Assembly: GCA_002731275.1 (NCBI GenBank)
Contig: PCBK01000165.1
Coordinates: 1-64,000 of the forward strand
Length of the DNA stretch: 64,000 bases
DNA from: Deltaproteobacteria bacterium
Lineage (GTDB): Bacteria; Myxococcota_C; UBA6777
Reading direction: 5' to 3'
Shown: piece after piece, positions 11,307 through 18,502 of the stretch
Numbering within the stretch: position 1 is the stretch's first letter
Layout: the number at the start of each line of letters is the position of its first letter
Program-made: the position numbers and the translations under genes
Notes under the pieces: generated by a model
Told to the model about the DNA's origin: nothing
What the model saw: only the letters and a program-made list of their open reading frames with translations
Databases searched by the model: none

Positions 11307-12593
11307 TTATTCAGGGGTCGCGACGATTTGTACCGAAGTCATTGTGCGTGTGGGTTGCTTTGTATCTCTGATCATCGTACGTCCAGTCATGCTTAGTATG
11401 CGAGTCAGCTCCGTTTGTCTGTGGAGGGTCACAGAGACATCCATGCTCTCGCCTGGTTTGAGAGTCGCAGGGAGCGGTAAAGATGTTTTGAGCAGAAGGT
11501 CGCTGGAGGGGGTGTCCAGTTGGATGCTCTCGATGAGTACCGGATTGCTTTTGGCTGAATGTACCTTGAAGATCTTTGTTTGTGGGGTGTTTGACTTCGT
11601 CGTGAAGAATCGAATGATACGGGTCTCGTCCTTTAGGTGCATACAACCATGTGCATTTTGGTAAAAGAGAGGGCGACACTTCATATCTTTGTTTTGTGCT
11701 TGACATTGTTCATCACTGGTGCAGTTGTGGGGAGGAAATGTGGCTTGTAATGGGATGAGATACACAACTGGTTTGAAGAGGTAACGCTTTTGAAATCGCC
11801 TTCCTTCTTTTGTGAGCATATCCAAAACGACAGTGGCTCTCCCAAACGGAGGTTGTCCTGATTTGGGATGATAGGAGACACTGAAATGGAGTTGTTCGCC
11901 AGCCGGGAGCGTTCCTTTGGATTCTATTTTGAGCGGGAGAAAGTCCTCTTTGGGTCCAACTTCAACATGAAGGGTTGCTTTGATGAAGTCGTAGGTTTCG
12001 CTTGCATGGTCATTCTTGATGTCGCATGTCGCGGTAAAGTGCCCATCTTGGAATGTAAACTGAGCTTGGCCATACATACTGCACTTCGAGCTTGTAGGGG
12101 GAGGGGTATAACTTTGGCGAAAGTCAGTTGAACGTAATGTTGTATTGTTTAGGCCTTTGAATTCCACACGCAATACAGCCTCCAGAGCTCCAGCGCTTAC
12201 TGGGAGTTCTTTGCGCTTTGAAGCATCACCCAAGGGGTCATATTGTACGATAATGGTACGTTTATTCTCGACGCCAGGCTGGAGTTGAAATGGAAGTGTT
12301 GGTGGATTCACAAGGCGAAAGTGAGCTTGATTGTCGTAGGCAAATTTGATGCTGTGAATGGTCACTGGGGTATTGGACTCGTGGTAAAGATCCACCGTTT
12401 GTTGTTCCGGTGCCGACGCAAAGGGGCCTTGGTAAGAGATGATCCCGCCTCTTCTCAAGATCTTGATTCTATCATCAGTTGTTGTTGGTGTGGAAGCACA
12501 TCCAGGTAGTTGTACAACAAAACAACAACACAGCAAACCACAACAAAGCATCATCCAGATGGGCTTGTGTCCCACCTGCTCTTTCTTGCTCAT
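11307..12593 (-). CDS. Lipoprotein with repeated Ig-like anchor domains, paralogue of the 17234 gene
   Basis: This 428-residue protein has a lipoprotein signal ending at LPGC (about residue 31). Two or three all-beta modules follow, with the alternating pattern of choice-of-anchor or abnormal-spindle-like Ig folds (for example ISYQGPFASAPEQQTVDLYHESNTPV written as strands, and LKPGESMDVSVTLH). A central Cys-rich insert reads FPPHNCTSDEQCQ and ends HGCMH. The same architecture and motif order occurs in the lipoprotein at 17234-18502, so the two are distant paralogues. AAGGA lies 6 bases before ATG 12593. Likely an outer-membrane or periplasmic surface protein; the partner is unknown. Confidence 0.75.
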   Translation of the reverse strand: MSKKEQVGHKPIWMMLCCGLLCCCFVVQLPGCASTPTTTDDRIKILRRGGIISYQGPFASAPEQQTVDLYHESNTPVTIHSIKFAYDNQAHFRLVNPPTLPFQLQPGVENKRTIIVQYDPLGDASKRKELPVSAGALEAVLRVEFKGLNNTTLRSTDFRQSYTPPPTSSKCSMYGQAQFTFQDGHFTATCDIKNDHASETYDFIKATLHVEVGPKEDFLPLKIESKGTLPAGEQLHFSVSYHPKSGQPPFGRATVVLDMLTKEGRRFQKRYLFKPVVYLIPLQATFPPHNCTSDEQCQAQNKDMKCRPLFYQNAHGCMHLKDETRIIRFFTTKSNTPQTKIFKVHSAKSNPVLIESIQLDTPSSDLLLKTSLPLPATLKPGESMDVSVTLHRQTELTRILSMTGRTMIRDTKQPTRTMTSVQIVATPE

Positions 12594-14022: not shown

Positions 14023-14116
14023 GCGGGCTCCGAATGGTTGTGGGGGTTGTCTTTGTGTGTGGGCTTTGCCATGATAGGTGCAATGACCCATTTCCACACA
14101 AGAGAGGTTTACGTTG

Positions 14117-14851
14117 ATGAGACATCATCCCTGGTTTGCAAAAGTATCGTTATTTTCTGTTTTGTTTTCAGTGTTGTTGTTCGGCGCCTGCCCAAGTGGC
14201 CCTGGTCCCAATGCTGAGGCAGGAGAAGAGAAAGCATCCGAAAAGGTAAGTGAAAAAGTCACGACAGAGAACACACAAGAGCCCCAAAAGGAAAAGGTCT
14301 CCGAGCCTGTCTCAGAGCCTAAAACTGAACCATCCCCAGAGCCCACATCAGAGCCTAAAGCTGAGAAGACTCCCGAACCTGTCTCGGAGCCTAAAACGGA
14401 GCCAGCGCCGGAGCCACAAAGTGAACCTGTGACAGAGAGTGTTCCTGACAAAATGGTTGTAGAGTCTGTGCCTGAACCCAAGCCAGAGCCGACAAAAGAG
14501 AAGGTCGTCGAGGCCGCTAAACCTTGTACCACTGATGCGGATTGTGGGAAACGAACCTGTGTTCAAAACGGCCAGGATTGTGACAGAAGCACGCCCATTT
14601 GTAGCCAAGGCTTTTGTAAGGTTTTGTTTGTGCAGGTGACCAACACGACTTGTGATTCGCAGACCGGAGTGTGTAAAGCTGCACCTACTACCTGTACCAA
14701 TCGTTGTGATTGTCCCCAAGGCTTGCTCTGTACACCAGGCGATGGTAAGTGTATCGCCGGGTTTGTCCCTGAGTATTGTTGTGATAACGCAGGCTGTCCG
14801 TCTGGTCAGCGTTGTTATCATCGTGACGGAAAACAAGGCGTTTGTCCCTGA
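14117..14851 (+). CDS. Lipoprotein with Glu-Pro repeat linker and Cys-rich C-terminus
   Basis: This 244-residue protein has a lipobox at LLFGAC. A linker of about 95 residues follows, built of repeated SEP-, TEP- and PEP-type units with Lys, which probably spans the periplasm or cell surface. The Cys-rich C-terminal 110 residues open with CTTDADCGKRTC and contain about 20 cysteines, likely disulphide-bonded. This layout is common among exported lipoproteins of Myxococcota-like bacteria. ATG 14117 has AGAGAGG 9 bases upstream. A similar linker occurs in the lipoprotein at 21821, although the C-terminal domains differ. Confidence 0.75.
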   Translation: MRHHPWFAKVSLFSVLFSVLLFGACPSGPGPNAEAGEEKASEKVSEKVTTENTQEPQKEKVSEPVSEPKTEPSPEPTSEPKAEKTPEPVSEPKTEPAPEPQSEPVTESVPDKMVVESVPEPKPEPTKEKVVEAAKPCTTDADCGKRTCVQNGQDCDRSTPICSQGFCKVLFVQVTNTTCDSQTGVCKAAPTTCTNRCDCPQGLLCTPGDGKCIAGFVPEYCCDNAGCPSGQRCYHRDGKQGVCP

Positions 14852-15182: not shown

Positions 15183-15329
15183 TCGTATATCCTTGTATCT
15201 CCAAATCAAAATTGAATGAAATGAGATCCATTCCTCGTATACGCGGGGATATACAGCTCTCTCCCTGAAGACATACGAGTGCGCCAAATGGTGGGCATTC
15301 ACGGGGAGAGGAGCATCTTGGGAGTATGT

Positions 15330-15761
15330 ATGTCTATCAAGTTCTATCAAAAAAAGCAGAACAAAATCAAACAAAAAAAGGCGATGGCTTCGTCTCTTCA
15401 CGAAGATGACGGGGTCGATCCACGTCATTATTTTCGTCACAAACCCAACAAAAAAGATCGAAAAACCCGCCAATTATGTGGCCAAATCGCACGGCAACTC
15501 AACGCGATTCTTGGTGAACTGTCCGATGATTTGCTCTCCACTTGCTACATCGAAGAGGTTGTCCCTGCGCCGGATATATCGAGATGTATGGTGACATTCG
15601 TGTGGATGGGGGACCTCGATGCTTTTGAGCCTCAACGTCTACTTGAGCGCATCGGTCAGGTCCAGGGAATGTTTCGCGGTGAGCTTGCGATGGCGATTCA
15701 TCGTCGTCGTGTGCCACAGCTCTCCTTTCGGGTCATTCCAAAAGAGGAGGTGTGTGCATGA
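15330..15761 (+). CDS. RbfA-like ribosome-binding protein coupled to RtcB
   Basis: This 143-residue protein matches the RbfA fold from about residue 50. QLCGQIARQLNAILGEL is the first helix, CYIEEVVPAPDISRCMVTFV is the central strand pair, and GMFRGELAMAIHRRRVPQLS fits the family's terminal LRxxLAxxLxLRxxPxLxF signature. RbfA binds the 30S subunit during 16S maturation. The N-terminal 45 residues are highly basic (KKQNKIKQKK, KPNKKDRKTR), fitting RNA contact. ATG 15330 has GGAG 5 bases upstream. Its stop overlaps the RtcB start as ATGA. Housekeeping rbfA normally sits with nusA, infB or truB, none of which is here, so this may be a second, specialised copy. Confidence 0.7.
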   Translation: MSIKFYQKKQNKIKQKKAMASSLHEDDGVDPRHYFRHKPNKKDRKTRQLCGQIARQLNAILGELSDDLLSTCYIEEVVPAPDISRCMVTFVWMGDLDAFEPQRLLERIGQVQGMFRGELAMAIHRRRVPQLSFRVIPKEEVCA

Positions 15762-16894
15762 AGCAAACACAAGCACCTCTTCATCAATGGATCAGTGAAC
15801 CTCTCTCTGGTGAGGTGAAGAAGGCGTTGTTGCGTCTTCAGAGGACGGATGATGTCGAGCATATCGCTGTGATGCCAGATGTCCACCTGTCTAAGGACGT
15901 CTGTATTGGGACTGTGCTTGCGACCAACCACACACTTTATCCCGACGCGATCGGTGGGGATATTGGGTGTGGGATCTCTGCGATACGCATCGGTGGTCGG
16001 ACAGACTGGATACACAAAGAGGCGTCTATGGCGAAGTTGTTACGTGAACTTCAACATTCCATCCCTGTCCAAAAACACCACGTCAGCCAGATCCCAGATG
16101 TCCCTGATGTGTTGGGGGATTGGCCATTGAGCTCGCCGTCACTGGAGAACCAGAAGTCCCGCGATGGTGTGTATCAATTTGGTACGTTGGGTCGTGGGAA
16201 CCATTTTTTGGAGCTTCAGGTCGATGAATCAGGCGATCTGTGGTGGATGTGTCACAGCGGTTCACGTGCGATGGGTCAATTGATTCGGAAACATCATCTT
16301 CACTATGCGGTCGCATCAAATACGGGGTTGATGGGGCTCGACACGAGGACGATCGAGGGGAAATCGTATCTTTGTGATCTACAATGGGCGTTGATCTATG
16401 CCGAGGAGAGTCGTCGAGAGATGTTGCGCCGTGCGACTGGGCTTGTCGAATCTATGTTTGGTATGTGGTCTGAGGCGTCTTCTTACATTTCGAGCCACCA
16501 CAATCATGTCCAATACGAAGAGCACGAGGGACGTTTTGTGTGGGTGCACCGTAAAGGTGCCAACCGTGTGGAGCGTGGAGAGGTTGTGTGCATACCTGGT
16601 TCGATGGGGACGATGAGCTATCACGTCTCAGGTCGCGGCGAGAAGGCTTCTTTGTATTCAAGCGCACATGGTGCTGGGAGGGCGATGCGTCGTGGAGAGG
16701 CAAGCCAGAAGATCTCGACAAAGTCTCTGCTCAAGCAGATGAACGGCGTGTATTTTGATATGCGAAAGGCTCCACGTCTCAGAGATGAAGCGCCAGACGC
16801 CTACAAAGATATCCACGCGGTGATGCGTGCCCAAAAGAAACTCGTGCGGATCGTTCGTCGTCTCCGCCCTGTATTTTCTTACAAAGGCGTATAG
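15758..16894 (+). CDS. rtcB: RtcB-family RNA ligase
   Basis: This 378-residue protein belongs to the RtcB family, GTP- and Mn-dependent ligases that join 2',3'-cyclic phosphate or 3'-phosphate RNA ends to 5'-OH ends. Visible signatures are MPDVHLSKD, GGDIGCG (Asp68 and Cys71 as metal ligands), GRGNHFLEL, CHSGSRAMG, SSHHNHV and SSAHGAGR near residue 304, whose His corresponds to the guanylylated residue. It is shorter than the roughly 408-residue E. coli enzyme and has GGDIGCG instead of GVDIGCG, as in divergent RtcB branches. GAGGAGG lies 7 bases before ATG 15758, and the ATGA overlap couples it to the RbfA-like gene. Confidence 0.92.
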   Translation: MKQTQAPLHQWISEPLSGEVKKALLRLQRTDDVEHIAVMPDVHLSKDVCIGTVLATNHTLYPDAIGGDIGCGISAIRIGGRTDWIHKEASMAKLLRELQHSIPVQKHHVSQIPDVPDVLGDWPLSSPSLENQKSRDGVYQFGTLGRGNHFLELQVDESGDLWWMCHSGSRAMGQLIRKHHLHYAVASNTGLMGLDTRTIEGKSYLCDLQWALIYAEESRREMLRRATGLVESMFGMWSEASSYISSHHNHVQYEEHEGRFVWVHRKGANRVERGEVVCIPGSMGTMSYHVSGRGEKASLYSSAHGAGRAMRRGEASQKISTKSLLKQMNGVYFDMRKAPRLRDEAPDAYKDIHAVMRAQKKLVRIVRRLRPVFSYKGV

Positions 16895-17028
16895 TCGAGG
16901 GTCTTGAGAGGGGGGACTCGTCTTGTTTGCTTGGGGATGAGTTGAAGAGAGAAGTTTGAAGCAAAAATATAGAGATTTGTCACTATCATTTGGGATGCGG
17001 GGTATGTTATTATTGTGCGCGAAGAATA

Positions 17029-17184
17029 AGGCCATCGGATAGAAAAAAGCGAAGACAAGAGGGCAGTGGGTGGAGCCTCAGGCAAGGCATGTCAACGACA
17101 AATAACAAAGCCTGCGGCTCCAGCAACAACCTTCTGTCTTCGTCTCATTTTCCGTATTCTTTTCTTTTTTCTATCCGACGGCCT
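17029..17184. repeat. 156-base nested imperfect palindrome
   Basis: Three arm pairs are nested around one centre. The outer pair is 17029-17049 with 17164-17184 (20 of 21 bases complementary, core GGATAGAAAAAAG with CTTTTTTCTATCC). The middle pair is 17050-17057 with 17135-17142 (CGAAGACA with TGTCTTCG). The inner pair is 17071-17083 with 17110-17122 (12 of 13). The loop is about 26 bases. The element fills the spacer between rtcB and the next lipoprotein start at 17234. It could be a structured leader RNA or a non-autonomous inverted-repeat mobile element; no transposase is present. Confidence 0.85.
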
Positions 17185-17233
17185 AAGGATTATTTGCCCG
17201 AAAAGCTTGACGTCGTGTTGTACGAGGAGAGTT

Positions 17234-18502
17234 ATGTTTGTATGTCATGCGATCAGATACATCCCAAAGTCTCTGTGGAGTTTCCTTCTTTTGATATGTT
17301 CCTTGGGGTGGTTCTTTGGTTGTGCTGAGGATGCTGAGAATATTCCTGTCAATCCCGGAAAATTACGCATTGAAAGAGAAGGAATCGTTTCGTTTCATGG
17401 GCCTCGTTATGGAACCCCTGACGTTCAGGTCCTGACTTTTTTTCAAGAGTCAAATGGTCCTCTGGTGATCAAGGATGTGTACCTTGCTGGAAACGAAAAT
17501 CGCGATTTTCGTATTGTGAAAAAGCCAGAGCTTCCAAAGGATGTACAGCCAGGATTGGGACGGGGGTTTCAAGTCGCCCTTCAATACGCTCCTTTTTCTA
17601 CAGAGGCGGTCACCAAAAATCTTCCAACACACCCCAAAATGTTCGATACAAAGCTCCACGTTACATACACCATTCCATGGGATGCAAGAGTCTATTTGTT
17701 TGAAATTCCTATGTATTACGAGCCGCCTCCTGCGTCATCTAGTTGTGAGGGAGAGGCCAAGCACGCATTCCACTTTAAAAGTGGACGTTACACACTCAAC
17801 TGTTTGATCGGTAATTCGAGTGAAAAGTCTTACCAAATCTCTCGGGTAGAGCTCCTCTTTGCAGAGGGAGAAACGACCTCTTCCTTGTCTTTGGTTTCAG
17901 GATGGAAACGTGAGATTGTCTCTGGTGGTGCTGTGAATTTAGGCTTTGTGTACTCTCCTCTGGATCCCGAACATACACCGAAACCTGTGGGTGTGCGTAT
18001 CGATTTGTTGACCGCTGACGGAGTGCTATTCAAGAAACAATTTCACCTAGTGCCTGACATTATCCGTTCGCGGTTTCGTGTTACGTTTCCGCCAAATGAT
18101 TGTGAAAGTGATCAACAATGCAAGGTTGATAAGGAGCTCTTGGTATGTTCTCCTCTCTATATCCTTCAACAAAAGGGATGTATGTTTCCAACTGGTCACA
18201 TTCCCGAACTCTATTTCTCGGCGGATGCCTCTAAAACAATCCAAAAGCAAACATTTGCCATTCATTCAACTGGAGATAAGCCCATCAAGATCAAAAGGGT
18301 CGTCTTGGATGAAGGGACTGATATGTTCGAGATCAAGGTTGAGGACAAGTTTCCTAAAGAGCTTACACCTGGAGAGCGCCTGTTGGTGACTGTCGTATAC
18401 ACGCCAAAAGACAGCAACCCTCGTCGAAAAACTTTGAGCATCTTTTCAGATCCTGAACAAATTACGCAATCTGTCATGTTTGTAACGGTTCGTTCTCGTT
18501 AG
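17234..18502 (+). CDS. Lipoprotein paralogous to the 11307 gene
   Basis: This 422-residue protein has a lipobox at GWFFGC (about residue 29), then Ig-like beta modules and a central Cys insert, FPPNDCESDQQCK to KGCMF, in the same order as the lipoprotein at 11307-12593. Matching landmarks are the opening IVSFHGP (compare IISYQGP), the PPPASSSC segment (compare PPPTSSKC), and a C-terminal module with LTPGERLLVTVVYTPKDS. GAGGAG lies just before ATG 17234; upstream in-frame codons fall within the palindromic element and were rejected. Likely exported and anchored in the outer membrane. Function unknown. Confidence 0.75.
   Translation: MFVCHAIRYIPKSLWSFLLLICSLGWFFGCAEDAENIPVNPGKLRIEREGIVSFHGPRYGTPDVQVLTFFQESNGPLVIKDVYLAGNENRDFRIVKKPELPKDVQPGLGRGFQVALQYAPFSTEAVTKNLPTHPKMFDTKLHVTYTIPWDARVYLFEIPMYYEPPPASSSCEGEAKHAFHFKSGRYTLNCLIGNSSEKSYQISRVELLFAEGETTSSLSLVSGWKREIVSGGAVNLGFVYSPLDPEHTPKPVGVRIDLLTADGVLFKKQFHLVPDIIRSRFRVTFPPNDCESDQQCKVDKELLVCSPLYILQQKGCMFPTGHIPELYFSADASKTIQKQTFAIHSTGDKPIKIKRVVLDEGTDMFEIKVEDKFPKELTPGERLLVTVVYTPKDSNPRRKTLSIFSDPEQITQSVMFVTVRSR

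Follow-up and report, generated by a model that had tools for sequence, protein, structure and literature searches.

The window analysed here, a stretch of 64,000 nucleotides of contig PCBK01000165.1 from a Deltaproteobacteria bacterium, raises the question of why a gene for a relative of ribosome-binding factor A (RbfA) should be tied to a gene for an RtcB RNA ligase. The upstream gene, here called rbfA2, and rtcB share an ATGA sequence in which stop and start codons overlap, and a purine-rich ribosome site lies ahead of each (Table 1), as the sequence-only reading of this DNA had described. Its further claim, that the pair is the whole operon, also holds as far as sequence can tell: rbfA2 and rtcB lie 478 nt from the upstream gene and about 170 nt from the downstream gene, and these neighbours are unrelated lipoprotein-like genes. 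Paralogous lipoprotein-like proteins flank the operon, encoded at window positions 11307-12593 (minus strand) and 17066-18502 (plus strand), with 28% identity over 382 residues. The protein encoded directly upstream (14114-14851, plus strand) is also lipoprotein-like and contains a long Ser-Glu-Pro-Lys repeat stretch followed by a cysteine-rich end.

Table 1. Features of the rbfA2-rtcB operon, in window coordinates
Feature	Position	Strand	Basis
Shine-Dalgarno-like GGGAG, rbfA2	15320..15324	+	sequence
rbfA2 (RbfA-like KH-II protein, 143 aa)	15330..15761	+	ATG 15330, TGA 15761; Pfam RBFA, AF2 model, PDB matches, conservation
LHEDDGVDPRHYFR motif, N-terminal extension, residues 23-36	15396..15437	+	occurs in G003 (sister genus) and in many homologues from planctomycetes; most of those from myxobacteria have it replaced
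RRRVP, residues 125-129, basic α3/β3 loop	15702..15716	+	consensus RKRxP, R125 98%, P129 100%
Shine-Dalgarno-like GAGGAGG, rtcB	15744..15750	+	sequence
ATGA stop/start overlap, putative translational coupling site	15758..15761	+	sequence
rtcB (RbfA2-linked clade, 378 aa)	15758..16894	+	ATG 15758, stop 16894
Weak terminator-like stem-loop just 3' of the operon	16899..16919	+	scan total barely above shuffles

RbfA2 matches the Pfam RBFA profile (PF02033) at 35.4 bits (cut-off 34.7), over positions 3-90 of 105. With the NCBI rbfA equivalog model TIGR00082 it scores 23.1 bits, under the cut-off of 51.15, and it is therefore not a canonical RbfA. The host assembly (10.75 Mb, 200 contigs) has a single canonical rbfA, which spans the whole RBFA profile at 113 bits and is located on another contig, C16, apparently after infB and a DUF503-like gene and before a DHH-family gene (names read from the sequences). 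The canonical copy thus holds the place beside infB, and rbfA2 is found away from that region. This agrees with the earlier suggestion that rbfA2 is a specialised copy with a second rbfA elsewhere in the genome, and it excludes rbfA2 being the only one. Part of that suggestion had leaned on a basic N-terminal tail. The start codon that gives this tail fits the homologues, which begin about 18-20 residues ahead of an EDDG motif, but the tail is not the conserved part of the protein; conservation resides in the QLCxQV helix, the PAPD loop and the RKRxP loop.

RtcB joins RNA ends bearing a 2',3'-cyclic phosphate and a 5'-OH. The RtcB of the operon matches its family profile PF01139 at 265 bits (cut-off 27), and its predicted model (pLDDT 96.6) superposes on the RtcB-GMP/Mn structure 4dwq over 367 residues with Z 40.6. 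Eight residues (D41, D68, C71, N148, H149, H166, H248 and H304) are invariant in all 56 sequences compared and K376 is present in at least 90%. Read from the alignment, they correspond to the metal- and GMP-binding residues of Pyrococcus horikoshii RtcB, which we take to be D65, D95, C98, N202, H203, H234, H329, H404 and K480. The active site, as aligned, is intact, in keeping with the original assignment of the protein as an RNA ligase. A tree of 74 RtcBs built by a quick method places the RbfA2-linked ligases together in a single group (SH-aLRT 100), separate from the PrfH-linked, the archease-linked and two other types; the score against the PrfH-associated model TIGR03073 (release_rtcB) is 153 bits, under the cut-off of 271.8. 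A different RtcB is also encoded elsewhere in 16 of the 18 non-own genomes tested, which makes the RbfA2-linked ligase an additional, specialised copy in most cases. The host genome itself carries two RtcB genes of equal score and extent at C50:16548-17621 and C197:2166-3239, one contig probably being redundant, and no adjoining RbfA2, PrfH or archease was seen for this type. It also has a third RtcB type on contig C95 (locus L003, 98-2826), downstream of a VWA-type-like protein that is another possible RtcB partner.

A first scan of genome contigs with a single protein as query gave no match. The genome of a sister genus (G003) contains both genes with the identical ATGA overlap, RbfA2 being 37-39% and RtcB about 52% identical. 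When 84,980 species genomes were scanned with the two RtcBs, the 80 nearest loci (44-54% identity) had RbfA2 directly upstream in 77 cases, that is, in 77 of the 78 evaluable ones; 73 were seen on the first pass and reading frames added L082, L095, L098 and L115. The other three comprise a masked locus (L040), one at a contig edge (L079) and one truly without RbfA2 (L067). Labelled loci belong to Planctomycetota (32), Myxococcota (26), Acidobacteriota (12), Pseudomonadota (3), Nitrospirota (2) and Verrucomicrobiota (1), and one of the loci that lack a phylum label is from a Riflebacteria genome. Among the 73 junctions measured, the overlap is of 4 nt in 41 and of 8 nt in 19. A profile built from RbfA2 found it at 77 of the 80 clade loci, whereas neither the 80 viral nor the 22 other bacterial RtcB loci gave a match. 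Most of the clade loci had also served to train this profile, which makes two independent checks important. Each of the 69 aligned RbfA2 proteins is recognised by Pfam RBFA with an E value no worse than 0.1, and four further clade members from a separate genome search (L135-L138) all have RbfA2, which is absent from three lower-scoring RtcBs (L133, L139 and L140). RbfA2-RtcB is thus a conserved two-gene unit in several bacterial phyla. Two of the three outcomes named beforehand as counting against a repair module were looked for, a sole rbfA in the genome and a pair not conserved elsewhere, and neither was found.

The distribution of the unit is patchy, the search score being reached in 7 of 188 genomes of the Sorangium phylum and in 3 of 386 mostly one-per-family genomes; among the genomes that reach it, G334, G469 and G610 are without RbfA2. 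A scan of 193 genomes with RbfA2 alone returned this family and weak matches, and the weak ones inspected are canonical copies. Chance pairing was rejected (77 of 80 loci against 0 of 102 control RtcB loci), as was confinement of the pair to the host genome, given its presence in G003 and across phyla. A phage origin was likewise discarded: viral RtcBs are 30-37% identical and come without RbfA2. No plasmid match was obtained at 1e-60.

Of 38 genomes with an RtcB of this kind, 33 gave a pair of RBFA matches: one covers all or almost all of the profile (62-114 bits), and the other ends at about profile position 90. A single match was obtained in five: RbfA2 alone was seen in L041 and L048, which may be incomplete assemblies, canonical rbfA alone in L067 and in L040, the masked locus, and in L113 only canonical rbfA passed the limit, RbfA2 being located there by reading frame. 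The Pirellulaceae locus L067 (5300-7140) is the sole evaluable clade RtcB that has no RbfA2 upstream. Because canonical rbfA coexists in nearly all genomes with RbfA2 at the RtcB locus, RbfA2 is free to specialise.

The two proteins might be merely co-expressed after translation damage, RbfA2 serving as a stress factor in 30S assembly or hibernation and RtcB in general RNA repair. There is a precedent in the stress operons where Balon and RaiA are encoded near rtcB with no physical link reported there (PMC10901736). Such independence fits poorly with overlapping frames, a gene order that does not vary and an almost invariable pairing with a single RtcB clade. No partner family other than RbfA2 recurs around these ligases, and no third conserved operon gene was found. 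The distances of RbfA2 and RtcB are also correlated (r 0.47, shuffled maximum 0.25), a correlation expected from shared descent alone. We regard independent roles as quite improbable.

The AF2 model of RbfA2 (mean pLDDT 87, above 90 in the core) has an α-β-β-α-β order, and the 24 best rows of a structure search are all RbfA or mitoribosomal RBFA chains, with Z of 11-13. It superposes on 2dyj with Z 13.2 and rmsd 1.8 over 89 residues, and on 30S-bound RbfA in 7afl (Z 11.4) and 8byv (Z 11.8). RbfA2 is accordingly predicted by the model to have the KH-II fold of RbfA, and the RbfA-like identity first given to it is upheld. This fold class is known to bind 16S rRNA. That property, together with basic RNA-facing loops that RbfA2 has kept, makes it unlikely that RbfA2 activates this RtcB in the manner of an archease, promoting guanylylation or turnover and having no part in substrate choice, even though a small protein in a strict operon with one ligase clade recalls the archease-rtcB operons (PMC3973293). 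Archease was found in just 7 of the 43 genomes checked, which would favour such a role; its absence says little, since it was also not found in the control, E. coli, which has RtcB.

Comparison of 69 RbfA2 sequences with nine canonical RbfAs indicates which surfaces have been retained. R116 after the kink and P129 are kept, while the kink alanine is relaxed from 100% in canonical RbfA to 37% in RbfA2, the proline and arginine of the DPR linker between α1 and β1 are not conserved, and the S7-contacting C-terminal helix is gone in nearly all 69 sequences. RbfA2 has gained QLCxQV in helix 1, PAPD in the β1/β2 loop and RKR before P129, and its conservation is strong in the β1/β2 and α3/β3 loops. 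In canonical RbfA, these two loops form a wedge between the h44/h45 linker, h28 and the 16S 3' end, whereas contacts to 16S 3'-end bases come from the DPR region and those to S7 from the C-terminal helix (PMC9917171). We infer from the alignment that RbfA2 has retained and reinforced the side that forms the wedge and has lost the elements gripping the 3' tail and S7.

Published work provides a setting for such a protein beside RtcB. Colicin E3 cuts 16S rRNA between A1493 and G1494, leaving RtcB-type ends; PrfH first releases and splits the ribosome, and RtcB2 then repairs the separated 30S subunit (PMC9223846). The analogy is relevant because the separated 30S is the subunit state that RbfA binds; RbfA binds free 30S and controls the docking of h44 (PMC8201178). 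In addition, 16S rRNA cut by MazF is re-ligated by RtcB (reviewed in PMC10630183). Given this end chemistry, the 30S repair by RtcB2 and the 30S binding of RbfA, the coupling of an RbfA paralogue to RtcB is consistent with a repair enzyme directed to the 30S. We propose, giving it an even chance by analogy with these systems, that RbfA2-RtcB is a two-protein RNA repair module. RbfA2 would be a dedicated adaptor derived from RbfA that docks on damaged free 30S subunits in the h28, h44-h45 and 3'-end region, prevents the cleaved helix from docking and recruits RtcB to the site of the break, where the ligase would reseal 2',3'-cyclic phosphate and 5'-OH ends of 16S rRNA. The most likely targets would be cuts that ribotoxins or stress RNases introduce into the 3' minor domain of this rRNA.

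The sequence changes in RbfA2 also bear on this proposal. Since the DPR motif and S7 helix are lost and the kink alanine is relaxed, the RNA target may have shifted, and the retained basic residues could suit any RNA-binding KH fold. RbfA2 might then direct RtcB to other broken RNA, such as tRNA anticodon loops, mRNA or 23S rRNA, through a KH domain that has drifted from the 30S site, which the newly acquired QLCxQV and PAPD would suit, and tRNAs are among the RNAs that RtcB seals (PMC10630183). This too seems unlikely: the fold and the conserved loops still match 30S-bound RbfA, 16S rRNA is the substrate of the nearest functional analogue, and RtcB2-PrfH is reported to give no protection from tRNA-targeting toxins (PMC9223846).

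Published prfH genes adjoin an rtcB gene (PMC1586002). No convincing PrfH was found beside the ligase in the flanks of the 80 loci, the only trace being a 26% release-factor-like match at L099. Above the curated cut-off, prfH genes with no adjoining rtcB are present in the host (L116 1501-2106, contig C105), in G003 (L117 1501-2109, C84) and in G198 (L118 1501-2115, C259), and all three genomes also carry the RbfA2-RtcB pair. Because prfH stands alone in these genomes and beside rtcB in published ones, there is a faint suggestion that PrfH works in trans with the RbfA2-linked ligase in them. In other myxobacteria the RbfA2 pair coexists with PrfH-like genes that adjoin a different RtcB, so the two systems are not simply interchangeable, and PrfH is not a constant partner of RbfA2-RtcB. 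Just downstream of the host's lone prfH (L116 2195-2334) there is a 26-base tandem repeat of 5.4 copies with 96% match.

Taken more broadly, and with somewhat less than even confidence, the pair may represent a 16S rRNA repair pathway of several phyla that has not been described before, in which a duplicated assembly factor has become the targeting subunit of an RNA ligase, the cell reopens and reseals the cut decoding region of the 30S instead of degrading it, and PrfH may split the subunits in trans in some genomes. No paper linking RtcB and RbfA was found in the literature searched, which missed the main RNA-repair survey (2016), so that an earlier mention is possible. In that literature, PrfH-RtcB2 is the one dedicated bacterial operon found described for the repair of cleaved 16S rRNA in the ribosome. 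Another pairing of ligase and partner with this role, derived from an assembly factor and maintained in several phyla, would point to ribosome repair as a more widespread strategy for which assembly factors can be recruited, and the pair gives a testable substrate prediction for a ligase clade named only RtcB in the databases searched.

The E. coli RtcB is a ligase for 3'-phosphate and 5'-OH ends that has been implicated in rRNA repair. The RtcAB system has an RtcB ligase in common with the present operon, but there the partner is the RtcR-controlled RtcA cyclase (PMC9650030) and here it is RbfA2. In archease-RtcB operons a small partner is likewise encoded with RtcB (PMC3973293); the partner here has instead an RbfA fold and the RtcB clade is different, and archease was not found in the host genome. 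The RtcBs at L133, L139 and L140 are of a similar short type and stand alone, without RbfA2. With canonical RbfA (PF02033, TIGR00082), RbfA2 shares the predicted KH type II α-β-β-α-β fold, the kinked helix with R116, the basic α3/β3 loop and the PxLxF strand, but it lies outside the infB region, coexists with a canonical copy, scores under the equivalog cut-off, lacks the DPR motif and the S7 helix, and has the added QLCxQV, PAPD and RKR. The PrfH-RtcB2 operon (PMC1586002, PMC9223846, PMC6514570) offers the closest parallel: both consist of two translationally coupled genes for a ribosome-binding protein, here a putative one, and an RtcB with an intact active site, known here from sequence, and both are sporadic in bacteria. 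They differ in that the partner here is an RbfA paralogue and not a release factor, that it precedes the ligase in gene order, and that the ligase belongs to a separate clade (153 against 271.8 bits for TIGR03073).
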